Shown: one piece after another, positions 3,131 to 24,560 of the stretch
Layout of the letters: every line of letters begins with the position of its first letter
How positions within the stretch are numbered: position 1 is the first letter of the stretch
IMG/VR virus record: IMGVR_UViG_3300031569_000038
Coordinates: 1-24,560 of that record
Direction: 5' to 3' (one strand)
DNA from: a virus
Length of the DNA: 24,560 nt
Program-made: the position numbers and the translations under genes
Notes under the pieces: generated by a model
Seen by the model: only the letters and a program-made list of their open reading frames with translations
The model's database searches: none
What the model was told of the DNA's origin: nothing

Positions 3131-4760
3131 AGCCGCAAATGCCGCAACTAGACGTAGGCCAAGACCGCAAATAACGCAAGCCTCAGTTATTCCTGCGCCT
3201 ACAAATGGTGTTGACGCTCGCGTTTCTTTAGCTGCGGGAGATATGAGTGTATGTCCGTATGCCTATAATATAATGCCAGATGAAGCAGGTATGCGAGTAC
3301 GATTAGGCTATCGCGAATTTGTATTAAATGTTGAAGACGCTACTAGTTTTGGAGTAACAACAGTAATACCAATGGAAGGTATAGCCGGGTCAGATGATAA
3401 ATTATTTGCGGTAACTAACGAAGGTATATTTGACGTTACAGCTTATAATACTACACCAACTAAAAAAGCAGCTTTTACTGCTGATACTTCCGTTAATGCA
3501 GGGTACGGTACTTTTGTTAATTATGTTAATCAAGCAGGCGCACAGTTTATTTATTACGCCGATAATTTAAACGGGTTATGGTTCTATACTGTTAGTTCAG
3601 GGGTTTGGGCAGCAGTAACAAATATAACCGGCGTAGATGAAACTGACATTTGCGGTATTGTAGTACATAAATTACGAGTGTGGGTTTTTACACGTAACGA
3701 AGCCAGTGCGTATTATTTAGGTATTAATACTATTACTGGCGCAGCTACTGAATTTGTTTTTGGCGGTAAATTTAGACGTGGCGGGCATATAGCAGGTATG
3801 TATAACTGGACTTTGGACGGCGGTGCAGGGATAGACGATTACCTTGTAGTTGCTAGTTCAGCGGGGGATGCGCTAGTTTATCAGGGTGAAGATCCAAGTG
3901 CGTCCTCTACTTGGTCTATTGTTGGCACTTATGATATAGGCGCAGCCCCCGTGGATTATCGCGCAGGAATTGAATATGCAGGAGAATTATTTATTCTTAC
4001 TGGATATGGTTTAGTTTCTATGGATGAAATACTTCGCGGCGCCAACGCGGAAAATCCTGAAACAAGTAATATAGCGTATAAAATATCTAAAATAATACAG
4101 CAAAGTATGATAACGCTTAGAAATAGTGCCGGATGGCACCCTGTTTTTTTTCCTGCAGAAGGTTTAATAGTGCTTATAAGTCCTGTGCAATCAGATGGCG
4201 CATATATACAGTATGTTCTTGATTTGACTACAAACGGATGGGCGTATTGGCGAGGTTTGCCTATACTTTCAGCTTCAATATGGCAGAACAAACTTTATTT
4301 TGGTACTGCTGACGCTAAAATTATGGTCATGGATGTACATAAAGATGGTGTTACAATAACACCTCCAAACGCTCCTGCTGAAAATGGTAATCCTATAGAG
4401 TATTCTATACTTCATACGTCTACTGACATGGGAAGTCCAGGTATGATGAAACGCGGAGCTTTTATACGGCCTAATTTTCGTGCAGATTACGCACCAATAT
4501 ATGATAGTAGAATACTATACGATTACGCGCTTGCAGAATTTAGTGCAGTGTTAGCGCAACCTGCAATTAATATCGGTGTTTGGGATGCAAGTATATGGAA
4601 TACTGCTACTTGGGGTTCGGGAGCAGCTACATCTTTTGGTACTGCTACAGGCGCAAGTGGCATAGGTAGAACATTAGCTGTAGCTATACGGGGAAGTTCA
4701 AGTGCATCTACAGTTCTTATAAGTACAGACGTTATGTGGAACGTAGGCGGTATATTATGA
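3120..4760 (+). CDS. P22 gp10-like tail hub / DNA stabilisation protein
   Basis: This 546-aa, beta-rich protein matches the pattern of phage proteins annotated as packaged-DNA stabilisation or tail hub. It has an NGVDA segment with a PYAYNIMPDEAGMRVRLGY run near the N-terminus, repeated beta blades, and a conserved WSIVGTYDIGAAPVDYR segment (about residues 265-281) followed by GELFILTGYGLVSM. It should form the closure of the neck below the adaptor. The start is TTG at 3120, preceded by AGGGA (3105-3109); there is no ATG before residue 42, and the start overlaps the upstream stop by 11 bases, indicating translational coupling. The first residues (VVRAAN) are encoded by an 18-nt sequence repeated exactly at 6445-6462. 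Confidence 0.7.
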   Translation: MVVRAANAATRRRPRPQITQASVIPAPTNGVDARVSLAAGDMSVCPYAYNIMPDEAGMRVRLGYREFVLNVEDATSFGVTTVIPMEGIAGSDDKLFAVTNEGIFDVTAYNTTPTKKAAFTADTSVNAGYGTFVNYVNQAGAQFIYYADNLNGLWFYTVSSGVWAAVTNITGVDETDICGIVVHKLRVWVFTRNEASAYYLGINTITGAATEFVFGGKFRRGGHIAGMYNWTLDGGAGIDDYLVVASSAGDALVYQGEDPSASSTWSIVGTYDIGAAPVDYRAGIEYAGELFILTGYGLVSMDEILRGANAENPETSNIAYKISKIIQQSMITLRNSAGWHPVFFPAEGLIVLISPVQSDGAYIQYVLDLTTNGWAYWRGLPILSASIWQNKLYFGTADAKIMVMDVHKDGVTITPPNAPAENGNPIEYSILHTSTDMGSPGMMKRGAFIRPNFRADYAPIYDSRILYDYALAEFSAVLAQPAINIGVWDASIWNTATWGSGAATSFGTATGASGIGRTLAVAIRGSSSASTVLISTDVMWNVGGIL

Positions 4761-5179
4761 TTATTAACTATCGCAATATACAAAGTGAAGACGATTGGAA
4801 TTGGATTTCTAAACGTGCTGATCCTACACTTACTGAAAATACAAAAGGTATTGTTGCAGTAGATAAAACAATAGATAGAATAGTAGCTATGGCGGTATTT
4901 GATACTTGGACGCATAACAGTGTTCAAATACACTGGGCTATAGATAATCCGTTAATTTTAAGGCATGGATTTATACAAGAATGTTTTAACTATGTATTTA
5001 ATACTTGCGATAAAGGCATAATGTTGGCTACAATACCTAGTGATAATGCTAAGTCACTTAAATTAAGTTCTCATATTGGCTTAAATGTAGTACACACTAT
5101 AAAAGATGGTTTTAACAAAGGTGTAGATTATATACTTATGGAAATGAGAAAAGAAAACTGTAAATGGTTAAAAAATTAA
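4757..5179 (+). CDS. GNAT-like acetyltransferase in the tail region
   Basis: This 140-aa protein has the layout of a small GNAT fold: a beta segment GIVAVDKTIDRIVAMAVFD (about residues 32-50), an IHWAIDNP strand, a helix with HGFIQECFNYVFN, and a C-terminal SDNAKSLKLSSHIGLNVVHTI segment like the N-x-x-A/S-x-x-L...GF/GL motif of GNATs. It ends with a CKWL motif seen in phage members. The classical acetyl-CoA loop (R/Q-x-x-G-x-G/A) is not clearly present, so activity is uncertain. ATG 4757 overlaps the upstream stop as ATGA with AGGCGG at 4745-4750; a GTG at 4736 is possible but less likely. Similar small GNAT-like genes occur among podovirus structural genes; their substrate is unknown. Confidence 0.55.
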   Translation: MIINYRNIQSEDDWNWISKRADPTLTENTKGIVAVDKTIDRIVAMAVFDTWTHNSVQIHWAIDNPLILRHGFIQECFNYVFNTCDKGIMLATIPSDNAKSLKLSSHIGLNVVHTIKDGFNKGVDYILMEMRKENCKWLKN

Positions 5180-16628: not shown

Positions 16629-17024
16629 ATGGCGTTACCAATCATAGGTGACATATTAGAAACTATAGGCAATTTAGCGGGAAAGTTTATTAAAGATAAA
16701 GATGCCGTGGAAGCGTTTAAACATGAAGTTAATATGTCTTTAACTAAAATGGACTTGGCACAAATAGAAATTAATAAAGTAGAGGCGGCCCATTTGTCCG
16801 TTTGGGTATCTGGGTGGCGCCCATTTATTGGATGGGTGGCAGGGTTAGCGTTAGCGCTAGAATTCCTAGTACGTCCTATCGTGCAGTGGGGTCTTGATAT
16901 ATCTGGGCAAGCTATTCAATTACCAAACATTGACAACCAAGAATTATATCCAATTTTGATGGGGCTTTTAGGTCTAAGCACACTTAGAACATACGAAAAA
17001 TTCAAAGGCGTTGCGCGTAATTAA
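16629..17024 (+). CDS. Holin of the 3TM (GTA-type) family
   Basis: This 131-aa protein carries the SGWRPFIGWVAGLALALEFLVRP segment (about residues 61-83), characteristic of 3TM phage holins (PF11351 type). Hydrophobic spans lie at about residues 65-88 and 105-119, and an amphipathic N-terminal half holds IIGDILETIGNLAGKFIKD. It should form inner-membrane lesions that let the endolysin out. I chose ATG 16629 with GATGGGG at 16614-16620; an upstream ATG at 16557 would overlap the endolysin gene heavily and lacks a ribosome site. The stop codon overlaps that of the convergent - strand gene. Confidence 0.8.
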   Translation: MALPIIGDILETIGNLAGKFIKDKDAVEAFKHEVNMSLTKMDLAQIEINKVEAAHLSVWVSGWRPFIGWVAGLALALEFLVRPIVQWGLDISGQAIQLPNIDNQELYPILMGLLGLSTLRTYEKFKGVARN

Positions 17025-17287
17025 TCTGGATTTATACCTTGCCTGGCAGTTTTAGATATTATCTCTAATCCTGGTACTCTATCCGCCATATCCATTATCT
17101 TCTTTAATGCCTTTACAGCCGGGGAATCCGCAGGCTTTTCATCTCCAGTAAAATTTTTTCTTAGACTGTTTGCAAAACTTAATAACTCTTCTCGCTTATC
17201 TTCAGGAACCCACACTTTTACCTGTGCGTGACCTTTGCGGGTCTTCTGCCGTTCGGCGTATCTCTGTTGGTGTATAAATTTATTCAT
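17021..17287 (-). CDS. Small basic protein, possible ribbon-helix-helix
   Basis: This 88-aa protein begins with a basic stretch, then AQVKVWVPEDKREELLSFANSLR, which looks like a ribbon-helix-helix strand-helix (a DNA-binding fold used by phage repressors and antitoxins). The tail (VKALKKIMDMADRVPGLEI) is helical. I chose ATG 17287 because AGAGGA (17303-17298) lies upstream; an ATG at 17341 overlapping the upstream stop gives 106 aa but has no ribosome site. It is the last gene of the replication operon and could regulate it. The fold call is tentative. Confidence 0.5.
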   Translation of the reverse strand: MNKFIHQQRYAERQKTRKGHAQVKVWVPEDKREELLSFANSLRKNFTGDEKPADSPAVKALKKIMDMADRVPGLEIISKTARQGINPD

Positions 17288-17333
17288 AATATTTTTGTCC
17301 TCTGAAATTTCTTTATTTTTTAAAATAGTATCA

Positions 17334-19829
17334 CTAGGCATCGGCTAGATCAAGAGCATTACTTACTGCGTCTTTTATTTTTTCTGAATCTAGCATACTA
17401 ACTTGTTCTCGTATAAACGCTTTGTCTATTTTACTAATATCTTCTATAAGAAACCTAGCTACATAACCTGGCTTTGCCAACGACAACATTTTTATTTTTG
17501 GTCTAACATTCTTACCGTCTATTTTTATAGTTCCGCAGGAAGAACCTTCAGTTTTGTAACGCATAACCGCTTTAATCTGCGTATCTAAATTTGATATGTT
17601 ATGTAAGTTTAGCCTCACTGCAAACTGATTTACTGCATGTCTAACATCCGATATAAGTATGAAATCCCCAGGTGTTGCATCTATTATAGCTTCTACTGCT
17701 ACCGTTAGTGGGTTCTTAGATGCTGCTATCATTGCTTTCTTAGCTTCAGTGCTAGGTGCAGGAGCTAGGAGCGCCTCTAAGTCTATATCTCTTTCTCGTA
17801 ACCATCGCCATATAGACTTAGCCCACTTAGGTCTGCCTATAGCATCTTTAACTTCTAACCATTTATTTAAGTCCGTAAAATAAGCAGGCGAGGCAGGGGT
17901 GATAGCGTTCTGCATGACATAGAACCGCCTATCACCGCCTGCCACCGCTAGGGCGTTATCGTGATTTGAAAACATAAGGTAGCTTGAATATACCATGCTA
18001 AATCTATGCTGTCCGTACTTTGGGTTAATACGTTCACGTTTCGGCCTTGGGTCTATATAATCTTTTAAACTCTCATACACTTTAAAATAGCTTTTAGTGT
18101 CCGAAGTATCTTTAGTTTCGTTTGTGACAACAAGTGGCTTCTCCATCCAATCGTTAAACACGCCGTCTCCGGTAAGTCTATTGAAAGGTACGTTCTCTAC
18201 ATTCTCTATGCCAATTATAGTTTCTATCATATCAGCTAGTGTAGTACGCCCAGTTCCCTGTTGCTTGGCTATCATAAGTATAGCTGCACCTCTAAAACTA
18301 AGGTCTTGCATCTTGGCTGATAGCCAATCAAGAAAATATTCTCTCTCTGCGTCTATAGGTACTAAATACGTTATGAACGCCATAAACATTTTTACGTCAG
18401 CTTCATCGTACGCACCTTCGCCCCACTCAGGTTGATGAAACATATTTATTCTTAAATCCTGTCCGTCTGTAACAATTTTAGCAGTATCTCTAGGATTAAA
18501 TGTTTGACCTTGTACTACAACTCGTCCGGGGGATGTTAGCCACAACTGCGTTTCAGCTACAGACTTAGCTTTACCATCTCTGGTAAACACCCTAACTTTT
18601 CGGGGGAAAGTATTTTTGAAGGCGTTCATTGTAATGCTGCGAGGTTGGGTCACGCCTTGTATCTGCCAGACAATATCGCCTGAGCTGTCGTATGCCCACC
18701 CCGCTACCAACTTTGCCGCAGGGTCAAATACTCCTGATTCTGGGCCGCCGTTGGTCGCCACGTAATGTAAGAAATCACTAGTGTTCATACTATCGCAGTG
18801 ACCATGAAAACATTTAAACGCTCGCCTATCTCCGTTCTCTTTACTTCTACCTAAAGGCATGTACCCTGCGGTATCTCCGGGAGTAGTATGATTAACACTC
18901 CAAGGACATTCTATCTCCACCCACTCATCGCTCTCTGAACGTACTTTTTTCTCTACATACAGCCATTCAAGTATTGGGTCTACAATACCGCCCATAGCCG
19001 GAGCTTCAGCTACTATTGGCGACCAAGGTGATGTTCCGACACTTCTAGACGCTCTACGTCTTGTCAGACCTTCGGCATCTTCTACTACCTCAGACCAGGC
19101 AACCTCAATCTCCATACACTCCAGTAATTTTTCTGGTGTCCAAGTAGGGCCATCAGTAGCTATAAGTTTAACAGGGAAATATTGTTTAGGTCCGGGCTTG
19201 TTATTAACCCCGCCTGGTAGCCTAACTAATTTTGTAGGCATCATTCCGCCAGTATCACTATAGCCGCTTTCATATACTAGCTGCACTAATGCCTGTGCAT
19301 GTTCTAATACGTCAATAGGCTTCTCTAACACGTAGCCGTATTGATAGTTTCCCTGACTACTTTCAATTATATATGTAGGCTGCAAGTTCTTGGGTATTTT
19401 TTCTACAGGAACTTTAGTGCCTATGTCATCAAGCACGACAACATGCAATCTTGTAAATAAATTTTTTCTGTTGTATAATCTCTGACTTTCTGGATCAGCT
19501 CTACACGTTGATGTCCCAAAATATAGTGCCATAGGCTTAGTTGCCCTAGCTAATCGTTTTAGCAGATCGTCCTCACCGCAGGGAAAACCGGGTATGTTTC
19601 TATCGGTAGCCCAACATAAAGTATTCTCATGTTCGTCAGAAGGATCCGCGCCTGCAAAAACCATATCCATGAAATCTTTAAGCTCGGCAAGATCGTATGT
19701 AACTCTAGTATCTGGATTGTCTTCTGCCATAGCAAATATATTACTGGTGCTTTTGCTAGGCTCGTCTGCTTTGATAATTTTAGCTTTAGTATCTATTTTA
19801 GTTTTTGTCATGCTAGTTTTACTTTCCAT
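17334..19829 (-). CDS. Primase-helicase (AEP-like primase + DUF5906 SF3 helicase)
   Basis: This 831-aa protein likely primes and unwinds DNA at the phage fork. Residues about 95-230 resemble a RepB/AEP-type primase: VVVLDD (acidic pair D134/D135), ESSQGNYQYGYVL, and KLVRLPGGVNNKPG. Residues 308-345 form a zinc cluster (C308, H314, C340, H342, H344, C345). Residues about 480-640 are an SF3 (DUF5906) ATPase: Walker A AKQQGTGRTT (521-530), Walker B LVVTNE (566-571), sensor MFSNHDNA (619-626) and GDRRF with a probable arginine finger. The Walker A lysine is arginine (R528). The start overlaps the polymerase stop by 11 bases; ATG 19811 is an alternative start. Confidence 0.8.
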   Translation of the reverse strand: MESKTSMTKTKIDTKAKIIKADEPSKSTSNIFAMAEDNPDTRVTYDLAELKDFMDMVFAGADPSDEHENTLCWATDRNIPGFPCGEDDLLKRLARATKPMALYFGTSTCRADPESQRLYNRKNLFTRLHVVVLDDIGTKVPVEKIPKNLQPTYIIESSQGNYQYGYVLEKPIDVLEHAQALVQLVYESGYSDTGGMMPTKLVRLPGGVNNKPGPKQYFPVKLIATDGPTWTPEKLLECMEIEVAWSEVVEDAEGLTRRRASRSVGTSPWSPIVAEAPAMGGIVDPILEWLYVEKKVRSESDEWVEIECPWSVNHTTPGDTAGYMPLGRSKENGDRRAFKCFHGHCDSMNTSDFLHYVATNGGPESGVFDPAAKLVAGWAYDSSGDIVWQIQGVTQPRSITMNAFKNTFPRKVRVFTRDGKAKSVAETQLWLTSPGRVVVQGQTFNPRDTAKIVTDGQDLRINMFHQPEWGEGAYDEADVKMFMAFITYLVPIDAEREYFLDWLSAKMQDLSFRGAAILMIAKQQGTGRTTLADMIETIIGIENVENVPFNRLTGDGVFNDWMEKPLVVTNETKDTSDTKSYFKVYESLKDYIDPRPKRERINPKYGQHRFSMVYSSYLMFSNHDNALAVAGGDRRFYVMQNAITPASPAYFTDLNKWLEVKDAIGRPKWAKSIWRWLRERDIDLEALLAPAPSTEAKKAMIAASKNPLTVAVEAIIDATPGDFILISDVRHAVNQFAVRLNLHNISNLDTQIKAVMRYKTEGSSCGTIKIDGKNVRPKIKMLSLAKPGYVARFLIEDISKIDKAFIREQVSMLDSEKIKDAVSNALDLADA

Positions 19830-21828
19830 ATCGCGTCATAATGACGGGTTCTGCTTTCAATGGAATACCTTTCGCCCAAACTGGGTTTGTTTCCATTACT
19901 TGTTGTAGCTCCTGTTTATATTTGTCTGCGCTCTCTACAGGAACTTCTTGTATTATCTCATCGTGTACATGCCCGACAACTCTATCTACTTGCCGTAGCG
20001 AATGCCTTAAAATATTAGCGCAAAGGGCTTGCGTCACGTTCTCAGCGAGTAGTCCAGGCCATAAAGATATGCGAGGCCACTCTTCTACACCTTGAGCAGG
20101 TATCCAATTAGCTTTCATGGCGGTGATGTTTAAGCGCGGTCCCCACTTAGTGTCCACGCTCTCTAGCTTGGCTTTAGGATATTGTATCACTAAATCACCG
20201 GGAAGTATGCAAAGTAACGTCCCGCCAAGCAAGTCTTTTATAAATAAATACGTCACTCGCCCGGCTTTATGTTCAGTGCCTGGACTTCGTATAGCTAACG
20301 TAGCCGCTCGGTCTAGTTGCGCCCAGAATATAGTTGCCCATACATTCTTCTCTCTCCAAGCATTTACAACGCCGCCTACTTCATTGTCTGTCATTTCTAC
20401 GCCGTACACTTTAGCCATAGCACTAAACGCTCCTAGGCCGCCGCCGTAGCCTAGAGATAGCTCCGCCACCTTACCAACTTGTCGCTCACCTAACCCAAGT
20501 TCGTCTGCCGTGTGCATGTATATATCAACATCATCAGCAAACATCTCTAGTCGGTCTTTAGCGTGTTCGCTTTTAGAAAGCCAAGGTAAAGCTCTGGCCT
20601 CAATGCTCGACCAATCGCCCACAACAAACACATTACCGTCATCAGGTATTAGCGCCGGGCGGAGTAACTTAGATAGAGTATCCATAACAGGTAGGTCGCC
20701 GGCATCATCTTCTAAGATATAGCCCTCACGCATCTGTTCTTTAAGGTCTTCAGCTTGGCTTGCGCTAAAACAATTCCTTGCCATATTGTGTAATTGCAGA
20801 CCTTTTGAGGCAAAACGCAGCGTCTGAGATGCTCCAGAATAAACAAATGCGCCCCGTACTCGGCTGTCCTCGCCTGTACAACGCCCTACCATCCGAGAAA
20901 ACTTAGCCACGCTAGACTTACTGCCCTTCTGTACTAAGGCAATAACTTCTTTAACTTGATCTGGTAACTCTATATGTCCTCGGTCTGCTTTTTCTAATAA
21001 CTCTGCCCGAACATTTTTATCTAAAGAATATTTCTTATCGCCGTCTTTATATATTTCCATTAAAGATTTAACTTTAACACCTACTTTAGTTAGCACCCAA
21101 TCTGCTATGCGCTTATGCTGAGTATGCTTCGTTACCGCTCTATCAGTTAGCTCGGATAACTTGCTGCCAATCTCGCCTTGCTCCATAGTCGCGTATTTCA
21201 TTGCGCCTTTTGCAAGCTCTAAGTCTATCTTAATACCGCGCTCGTTAATTCTTTCCGACACTAGCCAATCAGCATGTTCATCTTTTGTCATAGGTCTAAG
21301 CATAGCTACCGCTGATTTAGTTGCCCTGACATCATCTAAACAATACGCGCCCATCTCAGCCATAAGTTTTGGGTCCGCATTAAACTCACCAGTAAGTTTA
21401 TCAGGTATTGATAATAGTCGTATTAGCTGTGCGCCTCGGTGGTTCTTTTTATATTTGCTGTCTAATGCCTGGGTCAGCTTATCTAAACTCGCAGGCATAG
21501 CATTTACTCTTGCTTGTGCTGAAGTGCAGAACCATCTATCAAACTCTATTACCGGGAAGTTATGATCGTCTTCACCTATCTGCCAGATACCCCTATCAAA
21601 AGCGGCGTTATGTGCCATGACTAGTGGAGCTTGCTCGATAGCCTCAACAAGATCGCTCGGAAGCGCACCGTGTTCAGGATACCAAAGCCACTCGCCTTTT
21701 TGATTAGCTTCTTGATATGTAACCGCCAAGCAAATTATTTCTGTACTTGGGTGCATAACATAGTTGTCGCCGCCTTCTGTTTTTAAATCGCAGCGCGAGC
21801 GAGTTTCAAAGTCTATTATAATGTTCAC
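19819..21828 (-). CDS. DNA polymerase, family A, with 3'-5' exonuclease
   Basis: This 669-aa protein is the phage replicative polymerase. Exonuclease residues are present: D6 and E8 in DFET, D78 in HNAAFD, and Y162/D166 in YCLDD. Polymerase motif A is VVGDWSSIEAR (D405, E410, R412); motif B is RQVGKVAELSLGYGGG (R449, K453, Y461); motif C is GHVHDEI (H622, D623, E624). Position 457 in motif B, equivalent to E. coli Pol I 762, is leucine. I chose GTG 21828 because GGAAGGA (21841-21835) lies six bases upstream and the product begins MNIIIDFET as expected; an upstream TTG at 21843 overlaps the ribosome site. It overlaps the primase-helicase gene by 11 bases. Confidence 0.9.
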   Translation of the reverse strand: MNIIIDFETRSRCDLKTEGGDNYVMHPSTEIICLAVTYQEANQKGEWLWYPEHGALPSDLVEAIEQAPLVMAHNAAFDRGIWQIGEDDHNFPVIEFDRWFCTSAQARVNAMPASLDKLTQALDSKYKKNHRGAQLIRLLSIPDKLTGEFNADPKLMAEMGAYCLDDVRATKSAVAMLRPMTKDEHADWLVSERINERGIKIDLELAKGAMKYATMEQGEIGSKLSELTDRAVTKHTQHKRIADWVLTKVGVKVKSLMEIYKDGDKKYSLDKNVRAELLEKADRGHIELPDQVKEVIALVQKGSKSSVAKFSRMVGRCTGEDSRVRGAFVYSGASQTLRFASKGLQLHNMARNCFSASQAEDLKEQMREGYILEDDAGDLPVMDTLSKLLRPALIPDDGNVFVVGDWSSIEARALPWLSKSEHAKDRLEMFADDVDIYMHTADELGLGERQVGKVAELSLGYGGGLGAFSAMAKVYGVEMTDNEVGGVVNAWREKNVWATIFWAQLDRAATLAIRSPGTEHKAGRVTYLFIKDLLGGTLLCILPGDLVIQYPKAKLESVDTKWGPRLNITAMKANWIPAQGVEEWPRISLWPGLLAENVTQALCANILRHSLRQVDRVVGHVHDEIIQEVPVESADKYKQELQQVMETNPVWAKGIPLKAEPVIMTRYGK

Positions 21829-21841
21829 TATTTTTCCTTCC

Positions 21842-21882
21842 AAAGAAAAAGAGGGCGGTCAGTGCGAAAACTAGCCGCCCTC
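21842..21882 (-). terminator. Intrinsic terminator before the polymerase gene
   Basis: On the - strand GAGGGCGG (21882-21875) pairs with CCGCCCTC (21858-21851) in a perfect 8-bp GC-rich stem that can extend by a wobble. It is followed by TTTTTCTTT (21850-21842). It lies 8 bases after the stop of the preceding gene, and its T-run touches the ribosome site of the polymerase gene. It is on the - strand only; the + side has no T-run. Confidence 0.8.
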
Positions 21883-21890
21883 ATAAAAGA

Positions 21891-22535
21891 CTAAGCTACT
21901 TTTCTACGTCTTCTTTTCGGTATCTGTCCCTGAACTTCAGGTTTCGCTTCAGGCTCATCCTCTGTAACAGTGGATGAGTCTAGCCCTTCCCATTTGACTA
22001 TATCAAGTACAGGCGTAATGATTGTTCCGTACTTTTTATGTTTATAAGAAGAGTTTTTTAGATTGATAATTGGTACAATATCACTGTCCCCGTTCTCAAC
22101 CTTCAGCAAGAGCGCGGTCAATACACGTTGTATTTCATCTCTTGCACCTTTAGCGGTACTTTTAAACACCACTTGCTGACCTGTGTCCTCACCAGATACG
22201 CAAGCTAGTTGTATAGAGTATTGATCCGCCCAGTTTACTCCAACGTCTGCTAGTTCACTTCGCACTATTGGTGCATCATACGCCGGAGCCATTGCTTCAC
22301 CTAAGACGTTACTAGAATCGCCCCAAGCAATATACCCCATCTCAAAAGATTTAGGATTTATCGCCCACTGTGAGCCGTCTTGTACTTCGACTGAATCAGC
22401 CCCATACTCCCATGAAGCTAATTTAGTCAGCCGTAGAAAGTCTGCGCCTGTCCCGGCTGAAGCCGTTGACATTCTTGCTTTAGCGGCTTGTAGCCCCTTT
22501 AGCATATCGTCCATTTTTGTAGGTAGGTTTGACAT
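21891..22535 (-). CDS. Conserved phage replication-region protein, candidate SSB
   Basis: This 214-aa protein belongs to a group I recognise only as conserved phage proteins. The core has FLRLTKLASWEYGADSVEVQ, SQWAINPKSFEMGYIAWGD and YKHKKYGTIITPVLDIVKWEG, giving a beta-rich middle. The tail (about residues 190-214) is acidic (EDEPEAKPE) and then strongly basic (PKRRRRKVA). Its place between a nuclease and the polymerase, followed by its own terminator, suggests an abundant ssDNA-binding or recombination partner protein; that is inference. I chose ATG 22535 with AAGGAA just upstream; ATG 22559 would include the ribosome site in the gene. Confidence 0.55.
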   Translation of the reverse strand: MSNLPTKMDDMLKGLQAAKARMSTASAGTGADFLRLTKLASWEYGADSVEVQDGSQWAINPKSFEMGYIAWGDSSNVLGEAMAPAYDAPIVRSELADVGVNWADQYSIQLACVSGEDTGQQVVFKSTAKGARDEIQRVLTALLLKVENGDSDIVPIINLKNSSYKHKKYGTIITPVLDIVKWEGLDSSTVTEDEPEAKPEVQGQIPKRRRRKVA

Positions 22536-22569
22536 ATTTATTTCCTTTTCTGTTATCAATTAAGTTTCA

Positions 22570-23694
22570 TTAAAAACGATCTCTAAGAGCTTTAAGCCCT
22601 CTCACCGCCACGTACTCTGGTCTTTTATCGCTATGTCGAGCGATGGTAGTTCCAGAGCTAGTAGCACTACAATAGTCTTCGAATTTTTCAAAGTCAATTC
22701 CTTTTGTAGCGCATACTTTCTTGAGCTGCGTGGGCGATTTTATTTTACTGTCCACGCAATCTTCTATCTTTAATTTCTTTGCTTTGCGTACAAGTCCTAG
22801 GACTGTATCAGGGTCGTGCCACTTATTAATGGCTCGCTTTTGTACAAGTTTCCATCCGTCAAATTTAACACCAAGCTCCATCTGATCGTGAGCAAAAGCT
22901 CGCACATCTTTTATCCAAGCATCTAATTCTTCTGCTACAGCTAGAGCCTCGGATACTGTTTTTTGTTGCGTTGGTGCTAGTCGTTGCGCTTGTAGTATAA
23001 GTCCGGTCTTTGCAGGACAGGTTGGCGCAGCAGGACACCACTTACAGTGATCGCCTGGCATTGGCTTCTGACCGCCCTCTTCTGCCCGCCTGACAGCTTC
23101 CATAAACTCAGCCTCATAACAATCGAGATAAGCCATTTCGGTTTCCCAAGTTCTCAGGGTATCCTCGCCTCTATTGCTTGGCTGTATTATTGCAATAACA
23201 AGTCGGTCGCGCCCCTCAAACAAATCTGGTATTTCTTTTCGCGCAAGCATGGCATAAAATAAACCTTGTGCGCTGTGATCTGGCGATACAGAAATACCGT
23301 CACCAAATTTCCAATCGCCTACACACACTACATCTTTGCCTACTGCAATAAAATCTGCTGTACCGCCGATAGTATCGCTACACTGCATTGTGGCTTCCGC
23401 TTCATACTCTGACAGGCTGTACTCTTCACATAGTTCTGTAAAAGCATTGTTTGCAGGAATAAGTTTTTCAGTTACTAAATCGTTTGTAACTACAAATTTA
23501 CCGCGTCTAAACCCTACGCACGTTGCCAAAGTTTTATCGCCGAGTAGAATATTCTCCATGCAATCATGAAGCATAGACCCTATCTCGGCAAAACTGCTTG
23601 TGGCTTGTTTTGGCATCTCGGCAGATAGCTCTAACCAAGCAGGGCAGGCTATAGTTCGTGCGGCTGTTGAACCGCCGTACTTATAGTGCTGCAT
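22570..23694 (-). CDS. Cas4/DUF2800-type PD-(D/E)XK nuclease
   Basis: This 374-aa protein has the DUF2800 layout. H43 lies in SMLHDC, D114 in GTADFIAV, and D127-x-K129 in VCVGDWKFG gives the PD-(D/E)XK catalytic core, with Q143 in SAQGLFYA after it. Four cysteines (C17 in the N-terminal CPAW, then C217-x2-C220-x5-C226) match the iron-sulphur ligand pattern of Cas4/AddB-type nucleases. It probably acts as an exonuclease in DNA recombination or host DNA processing. There is no CRISPR locus in view, so a CRISPR role is not suggested. ATG 23694 overlaps the upstream stop as TAATG; the C-terminal part is helical and basic. Confidence 0.8.
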   Translation of the reverse strand: MQHYKYGGSTAARTIACPAWLELSAEMPKQATSSFAEIGSMLHDCMENILLGDKTLATCVGFRRGKFVVTNDLVTEKLIPANNAFTELCEEYSLSEYEAEATMQCSDTIGGTADFIAVGKDVVCVGDWKFGDGISVSPDHSAQGLFYAMLARKEIPDLFEGRDRLVIAIIQPSNRGEDTLRTWETEMAYLDCYEAEFMEAVRRAEEGGQKPMPGDHCKWCPAAPTCPAKTGLILQAQRLAPTQQKTVSEALAVAEELDAWIKDVRAFAHDQMELGVKFDGWKLVQKRAINKWHDPDTVLGLVRKAKKLKIEDCVDSKIKSPTQLKKVCATKGIDFEKFEDYCSATSSGTTIARHSDKRPEYVAVRGLKALRDRF

Positions 23695-24002
23695 TATACG
23701 TCCAATTCTTGTTGAGCCGCTAATTGATAGCCGTAAGCTGTGTAGACGCGATCATCCATACTAGCGATTGTTCCGACATGCACTACGTTGCGGCCTTTGT
23801 CGATTTGCAACGCTTTTCCGCCTACTTCAATAACTGCGATAATAATATCCTCAGTCTTTTTCTTGTTTGATCTGTCATAGGTAATAACAAGCTCATTGCC
23901 TTTGGCAGTATTAACAAAACCGCAGATGTTAGTTCCAGTCGGCACTTTAAGTTCGTTAATGCCGAGCTTAACTACAATTTTTTCAGATATTAATTTAATC
24001 AT
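23694..24002 (-). CDS. Small unknown early protein
   Basis: I do not recognise this 102-aa protein. It is beta-rich and mixed in charge (for example KIVVKLGINELKVPTG at the N-terminus and IIIAVIEVGGKALQIDKG in the middle), without cysteine clusters or catalytic motifs; a single cysteine occurs near residue 27. AAGGAC followed by seven A residues precedes ATG 24002. It overlaps the upstream small gene by 8 bases and the nuclease gene by one base, so it belongs to the same operon. Its role could be an accessory to replication or host takeover; nothing in the sequence decides. Confidence 0.5.
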   Translation of the reverse strand: MIKLISEKIVVKLGINELKVPTGTNICGFVNTAKGNELVITYDRSNKKKTEDIIIAVIEVGGKALQIDKGRNVVHVGTIASMDDRVYTAYGYQLAAQQELDV

Positions 24003-24183
24003 TTTTTTGTCCTTTTTTGTTTAGTGGATAAGCATGAACATGAGCCGCCAGGATAGCGTCTAACATTTTAGTCATCGAGGTTTCATATCGTAGGGCATAT
24101 TCCGTCATAATTTTATGCGCGGGTTCTGAGATCGCCATCATTTTGCGCTCAGTATTTATTTTTTTAGGCGGTACAAAATTCAT
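23995..24183 (-). CDS. Small RHH-like putative DNA-binding protein
   Basis: This 62-aa protein has a central MAISEPAHKIMTEYALRYETSMTKMLDAILAAHV segment resembling the strand-helix-turn-helix of ribbon-helix-helix proteins, flanked by basic ends (PPKKINTERK and NKKGQKND). It is short but is preceded by AAGGAA and starts at ATG 24183. It overlaps the next gene by 8 bases. A regulator of early genes is the natural guess; confirmation needs a structural search. Confidence 0.5.
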   Translation of the reverse strand: MNFVPPKKINTERKMMAISEPAHKIMTEYALRYETSMTKMLDAILAAHVHAYPLNKKGQKND

Positions 24184-24207: not shown

Positions 24208-24480
24208 TTAATTGATTGCCGCCCAATCTTCGGCGGTTTCTGTAATATCTTGCGCGACAGAAATCATGTTTGTAGACGCAAAACGCCGAATATATAAGTC
24301 GTTAAAAACAGACAAATCTATTTCTTCATTGTCGGAATTGCAGACTGATATTTCGGTTATCTCAAAACTATCTCTGGGTGTTTTCCGCTCGTACCATACA
24401 TCTACAGTGAGTAGGTGGTCTTCATATAAGAAATACTCAAAACTTCTGTCTATTTCATTGCTCATCAAAATACCTAACAT
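24208..24480 (-). CDS. Small unknown acidic early protein
   Basis: This protein of about 90 aa has no recognisable family. It is acidic (SDNEEIDLSVF, DITETAEDWAAIN) with a beta-like first half (FEYFLYEDHLLTVDVWYER). I chose ATG 24480, which has AAAGG five bases upstream; ATG 24465 (MSNEIDRSFEYF) and ATG 24522 (104 aa, weak ribosome site) are alternatives. It is the most upstream gene of the - strand operon in the window; the promoter of the operon lies beyond 24560. Confidence 0.4.
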   Translation of the reverse strand: MLGILMSNEIDRSFEYFLYEDHLLTVDVWYERKTPRDSFEITEISVCNSDNEEIDLSVFNDLYIRRFASTNMISVAQDITETAEDWAAIN

Positions 24481-24560
24481 TTTGGCCTTTAGTATATTGG
24501 TTAGTGTATGTTCTCTCCACATGCCCGTTTGTTAGCCATTTAGGTTTAGTGTGTGCGCGT

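Follow-up and report, generated by a model that had tools for sequence, protein, structure and literature searches.

What does the protein encoded at 21891-22535 on the minus strand of this virus record do, lying as it does between a nuclease gene and a DNA polymerase gene? The window, by which we mean the whole stretch of DNA analyzed, is a 24,560-base virus record; as this is a 24.6-kb fragment, the absence of a single-stranded DNA-binding protein (SSB) gene from it speaks for the fragment, not for a whole genome. A preliminary description had suggested an unrecognized ssDNA-binding or annealing protein, a suggestion to which the OB-type predicted fold, the pairing with a nuclease, and the lack of any other recognized SSB all lend support. 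On these grounds, and because of its DUF2800-X-PolA slot, we consider it very likely that the candidate is the phage's own replicative OB-fold SSB, in a family that is recognized by neither Pfam nor NCBIfam.

The gene itself is real. Its open frame starts at 22559 (TTG) or 22535 (ATG) and ends at 21891, and a ribosome-binding-like box, AAGGAA, directly precedes the ATG, which we took as the start to give a product of 214 aa (21891..22535, minus strand; PHROG 9528 family). Codon changes number 19 synonymous and 5 nonsynonymous against one near relative (L001), and 21 and 6, respectively, against another (L002). These mostly synonymous substitutions, together with the relatives that tblastn finds in 54 of 50,697 phage records, agree with the earlier view that the protein is conserved.

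Similarly, Pfam matches of both neighbors bear out the placement between a PD-(D/E)XK nuclease and PolA that had been read from the window. Upstream, in the same direction, is the partner gene for a 374-aa DUF2800/PD-(D/E)XK nuclease (22570..23694, minus strand; DUF2800 E 1.7e-44, PDDEXK_1 E 4.5e-8), with motif-like residues, GTAD and DWK. Downstream are a family-A DNA polymerase of 674 aa (19819..21843, minus strand; DNA_pol_A match) and a primase/helicase of 831 aa (17334..19829, minus strand; DUF5906 and phage DNA primase PHROGs).

No Pfam or NCBIfam model matches the window protein, nor does any Pfam model match the 47 members scanned, and searches of PDB sequences gave nothing useful (one without any match, the other with 7lm6 as its best at E 0.48). 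On its own, the window protein retrieved only two relatives, both near-identical, from viral contigs; the wider family was gathered with smaller alignments, a 12-sequence alignment being too diverse as a query. The tblastn relatives come from phages of Caulobacter, Brevundimonas, Sphingobium, Erythrobacter, Mesorhizobium, Nostoc, and Microcystis, plus one uncultured podovirus, and in IMG/VR a relative is encoded in at least 535 of 599 candidate stretches. Our working set comprised 125 loci in 56 clusters at 80% identity. Several GenBank records, including those of the phiCbK member (L008, 5905-6984) and its relatives, carry the name (polyribo)nucleotide nucleotidyltransferase, and the CcrBL1 record names its member DNA polymerase III alpha subunit. 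Both labels look wrong. Judging from predicted structure and gene order, this is most likely a large type of phage SSB that is new to curated libraries and was previously unrecognized or labeled nucleotidyltransferase.

Once L003, which duplicates the window, had been set aside, 124 loci were available for the analysis of gene order, and 14 of these remained uncounted because their upstream flank was short. Each of the 110 loci with at least 1.5 kb of upstream flank has a same-strand PD-(D/E)XK-type nuclease gene ahead of the candidate (at most 2.6 kb away, with a 250-base overlap allowed), as counted with nuclease models built from the very loci counted; the co-occurrence proposed in the preliminary description thus holds wherever it could be examined. 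The distance is at most 1 kb in 106 of the 110, and L109, L110, L093, and L051 also have a nuclease upstream. By cluster representative, the figure is 50 of 50, made up of 26 DUF2800 and 24 RecE/Cas4-like nucleases, and the two sets show zero overlap between loci. The RecE/Cas4-like type is a nuclease by its matches to PHROG 434, 1706, and 1990 (four of four proteins scanned), Pfam having given no nuclease match in three proteins scanned. When the DUF2800 and RecE-like profiles were compared, only a short cysteine-containing stretch was common to both (E 0.0077, probability 5).

Within 3 kb downstream, the 93 loci with 3.5 kb of flank have PolA in 55 cases, a Dda-type helicase in 32, and neither in six. 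Nuclease type and downstream partner switch together: of the 38 cluster representatives for which both flanks are available, 15 combine DUF2800 with PolA (the window included), 21 combine a RecE-like nuclease with Dda, and two have DUF2800 without either partner. The candidate gene is constant throughout, and its retention while both nuclease and partner switch makes DNA a more likely ligand than any one partner. The phiCbK member, D865_gp299, sits between a RecE-like nuclease gene and a Dda-like helicase. In two further loci, from Nostoc and Microcystis phages (L005 and L006), DUF2800 and the candidate are on one strand, with polymerase and primase on the other, and a DNA helicase lies downstream.

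If the candidate is the SSB of these phages, is there another? We searched 11 GenBank phages and 11 IMG/VR contigs in which the gene occurs, 22 records altogether, along with controls that brought the number to 25 for PF10991 and PF08804. There was no match over cut-off in any of the 22 for the SSB family PF00436 (the named control genome gave one), for the Enc34 SSB family PF10991 (Enc34 alone matched among the 25), for gp32, PF08804 (T4 alone matched among the 25), or for T7 SSB, PF21265, in a search that had no control with a match. The same holds for the annealases RecT (PF03837) and Erf (PF04404), whose named control genomes matched. Across these six family searches, the sole sub-threshold match was one to PF21265 elsewhere in the CcrColossus genome (E 0.003, 14.7 bits). 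The reading that no SSB, Erf, or RecT gene is visible therefore stands for the window genes scanned and extends to 22 other records, and a separate SSB, which might have spoken against the proposal, did not appear over cut-off in them. The candidate family itself (47 members) gave no PF10991 or PF21265 match at E≤1 and no match to PF08804, PF03837, or PF04404. According to the available text of the phiCbK genome paper (PMC3556154), an SSB was found neither in phiCbK nor in its relatives; phiCbK carries D865_gp299.

The predicted structure points in the same direction. Two AlphaFold models were made: model 1 of the window protein, from an alignment of 47 sequences from both clades (pLDDT 85.0), and model 2 of the CcrColossus relative, from 20 jumbo-clade sequences with the window clade left out, an alignment that partially overlaps that of model 1 (pLDDT 82.4). 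In model 1, pLDDT exceeds 90 through most of the folded core, residues 30-185 (21981..22448, minus strand, computed from residue numbers). The best solved match is in both cases phiC31 gp3, in an integrase excision complex (PDB 9teh, chain I), with Z 9.2, rmsd 4.0, and 142 aligned residues for model 1 and Z 9.0, rmsd 4.4, and 155 aligned residues for model 2. Foldseek places the same protein at rank 2 for model 1 (probability 0.93, E 0.034) and at rank 1 for model 2 (probability 1.00, E 1.5e-3), with nothing in the PDB at E < 0.001 for either. The gp32 core comes second for model 1 (Z 6.0/5.9 over 126 residues) and reaches Z 5.6 over 143 residues for model 2; being below 8, this may on its own reflect just a common arrangement. 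SSB, RPA, BRCA2, and similar chains follow at lower Z with both models, and chains of Enc34 SSB and T7 gp2.5 are not among the matches listed for either in the comparison by Z. The comparison tool gives 7-8 as the usual Z of a model that has no clear match, and a value of about 9 exceeds this only slightly, so the case for the fold draws on its repetition, on the kinds of protein matched, and on gene order. The core is thus predicted to be an OB-type fold. The structure prediction suggested beforehand turned up OB-type ssDNA-binding proteins with both models, and this contradicts the description of the fold as unknown.

How does the candidate compare with known phage SSBs? Enc34 has the gene order DUF2800, SSB, and then PolA, and its SSB is proven to bind ssDNA, according to the text at hand of PMC5686142; similarly, excerpts of PMC8093625 describe duf2800-gp2.5-polA as a module, without ssb genes, and count gp2.5 among annealing proteins. 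The candidate fills the same slot between DUF2800 and PolA as the Enc34 ORF6/T7 gp2.5-type SSBs (PF10991, PF21265) and shares with them an acidic stretch in the tail and the expected role, but it lacks a profile match to them, its tail ends in arginines rather than acids, and a profile-profile comparison with the Enc34 SSB alignment gave nothing. With T4/RB69 gp32, the second-best solved match, the likeness covers the whole core, and in one candidate clade the neighbor is a Dda-type helicase, with which gp32 is paired in PDB 8gme; against this, there is no profile match, Z is only about 6, and the candidate tip is basic. Among the 47 members, zinc-type cysteines are absent from low-entropy columns except at position 70 (C in 17 of 47). 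The gp32 protein binds zinc.

Charge deserves a closer look. An acidic stretch followed by arginines is a constant and unusual trait of the family tail. In the window protein, it comprises a disordered acidic linker of low pLDDT, residues 186-202 (21930..21980, minus strand), and a basic C-terminal tip with KRRRRK, residues 203-214 (21894..21929, minus strand). Of 47 members, 46 have a tail that is net negative ahead of its last 12 residues, and all 47 have a net positive charge in those 12; all 56 cluster representatives are net positive over their final 10 residues, 54 have a basic pair there, and 24 have an aromatic residue among the last three. The usual tip of known phage SSBs, as in Enc34, is acidic, and the arginine-rich C-terminus of the candidate counts against the SSB reading. 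So does the core, which is net acidic (-3 to -15 across 47 members) and in this respect speaks against ssDNA binding, but the T4 gp32 core is also net acidic, at -4.

As a working mechanism, we infer that the protein binds ssDNA and perhaps also anneals strands. The core (residues ~30-185) would coat the ssDNA that arises from end resection by the DUF2800 nuclease, and also that exposed when the genome is opened and copied by the primase/helicase and PolA. It would probably help complementary strands to pair, like T7 gp2.5, and the flexible tail, with its acidic linker and arginine-rich tip, would likely touch the nuclease, the polymerase, or DNA.

The match to phiC31 gp3 (PF18897, Gp3-like recombination directionality factor), which makes the phiC31 integrase run in reverse, merits separate consideration. 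The two proteins are similar in length, and gp3 also lies in a replication region after an exonuclease gene: in phiC31, gp1 (annotated exonuclease), gp2, and gp3 stand ahead of the primase and polymerase genes. An annotated Cas4-type exonuclease is located 0.6-1.9 kb upstream of the Gp3-like gene in four of eight other records, and in the Sycamore record a gene annotated as helicase has exonuclease matches. Against the comparison are IAmGroot, with the exonuclease 2.9 kb upstream, Samy, with no annotated Cas4-type gene seen within 4 kb upstream, and SF3, with hypothetical proteins only. None of the nine Gp3-like records, phiC31 included, has a PF00436 SSB. As to experiment, the accessible portion of PMC3836970 reports that gp3 deletion yields no plaques, proposes that the protein takes part in replicating phage DNA, and finds no shift of double-stranded att DNA by phiBT1 Gp3; neither ssDNA nor single-strand occurs as a term in that portion. 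The deletion, the gene order, and the lack of att dsDNA binding together fit an ssDNA-binding protein that has an additional function. In sequence, no relation to gp3 is detectable, as the PF18897 profile matches none of the 22 records or 47 members and profile-profile comparison with the gp3 alignment gave nothing; common ancestry of the candidate with phiC31 gp3 or Enc34 SSB is consequently a matter of fold and gene order. With that in mind, we put forward tentatively, as an idea that falls a little short of probable, that a single phage SSB superfamily, tied to nucleases of the Cas4/RecE/DUF2800 type, includes both the candidate family and the Gp3-like directionality factors as branches. 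The SSB of phiC31-like phages would have been recruited to the serine integrase, its arrival signaling excision, and the candidate branch would have evolved a charge-inverted, arginine-rich tip.

Could the candidate instead be the directionality factor of a serine integrase, as the top match of both models might suggest? We think this most improbable, because no serine recombinase appears over cut-off in any of the 22 candidate-carrying records, the 11 from GenBank included (phiC31 matched; CcrColossus had one sub-threshold match). Even among the nine Gp3-like phages, phiC31 among them, four lack the serine recombinase domains PF00239 and PF07508. As a side observation, the phages of L167-L170 encode Gp3-like proteins, several of them annotated "recombination directionality factor," yet no serine recombinase is detectable in these phages. 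An enzymatic role has still less to recommend it: all 47 members match phrog_9528, labeled "nucleotidyltransferase," and several GenBank annotations agree, but none has a Pfam nucleotidyltransferase domain and the predicted fold is OB-like, so that we give this function hardly any credence.

Two other explanations keep the OB fold or the nuclease pairing. An accessory subunit with the nuclease or polymerase, rather than DNA, as its ligand would accommodate the acidic core and basic tip, as well as the phiBT1 Gp3 result; it is very unlikely given that the 22 records have no other SSB over cut-off and that the candidate stays as DUF2800 with PolA gives way to RecE-like with Dda. More serious, if still improbable, is a protein that is mainly a single-strand annealing recombinase, with host SSB coating DNA during replication. 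The constant pairing with RecE-like/Cas4-like or DUF2800 nucleases would be expected of it, and the standing of gp2.5 as an annealing protein also favors it. However, the folds among the matches listed are those of SSBs, not annealases, RecT and Erf profiles find nothing, and the slot, beside a polymerase or Dda helicase, is like that of replication proteins; moreover, gp2.5-type proteins combine something of both roles. The parallel with DUF2800-SSB-PolA phages favors an SSB over an annealase of the RecT/Erf type.

If the SSB reading is correct, the SSB missing from phiCbK-like jumbo phages and from a large group of environmental phages would be accounted for, and a misleading nucleotidyltransferase annotation would be corrected. 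The reading would also offer a reason for the presence of phiC31 gp3 among replication genes and for the loss of plaques on its deletion. Within the accessible excerpts of the open-licence PMC literature, we recognized no paper naming either the candidate family or phiC31 gp3 an SSB. Phage SSBs trigger several bacterial defense systems, as stated in the available part of PMC13381803, and for this reason unrecognized SSBs are worth naming.

The remainder of the window adds a few minor observations. Three small minus-strand genes upstream of the nuclease (23694-24002, 23995-24183, and 24208-24522) are without a convincing library match, and a counterpart of the first is also found upstream of the nuclease in L001. 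Downstream of the primase, a small minus-strand protein (17021-17341) matches phrog_11804 and, below the cut-off, NCBIfam UrfF (29.1 bits where 100 are required). The plus-strand genes include those for head, tail, ejection, and lysis proteins, and amid the structural genes is one (4736-5179, plus strand) for an acyl-CoA N-acyltransferase-like protein (phrog_4470, E 7e-22).
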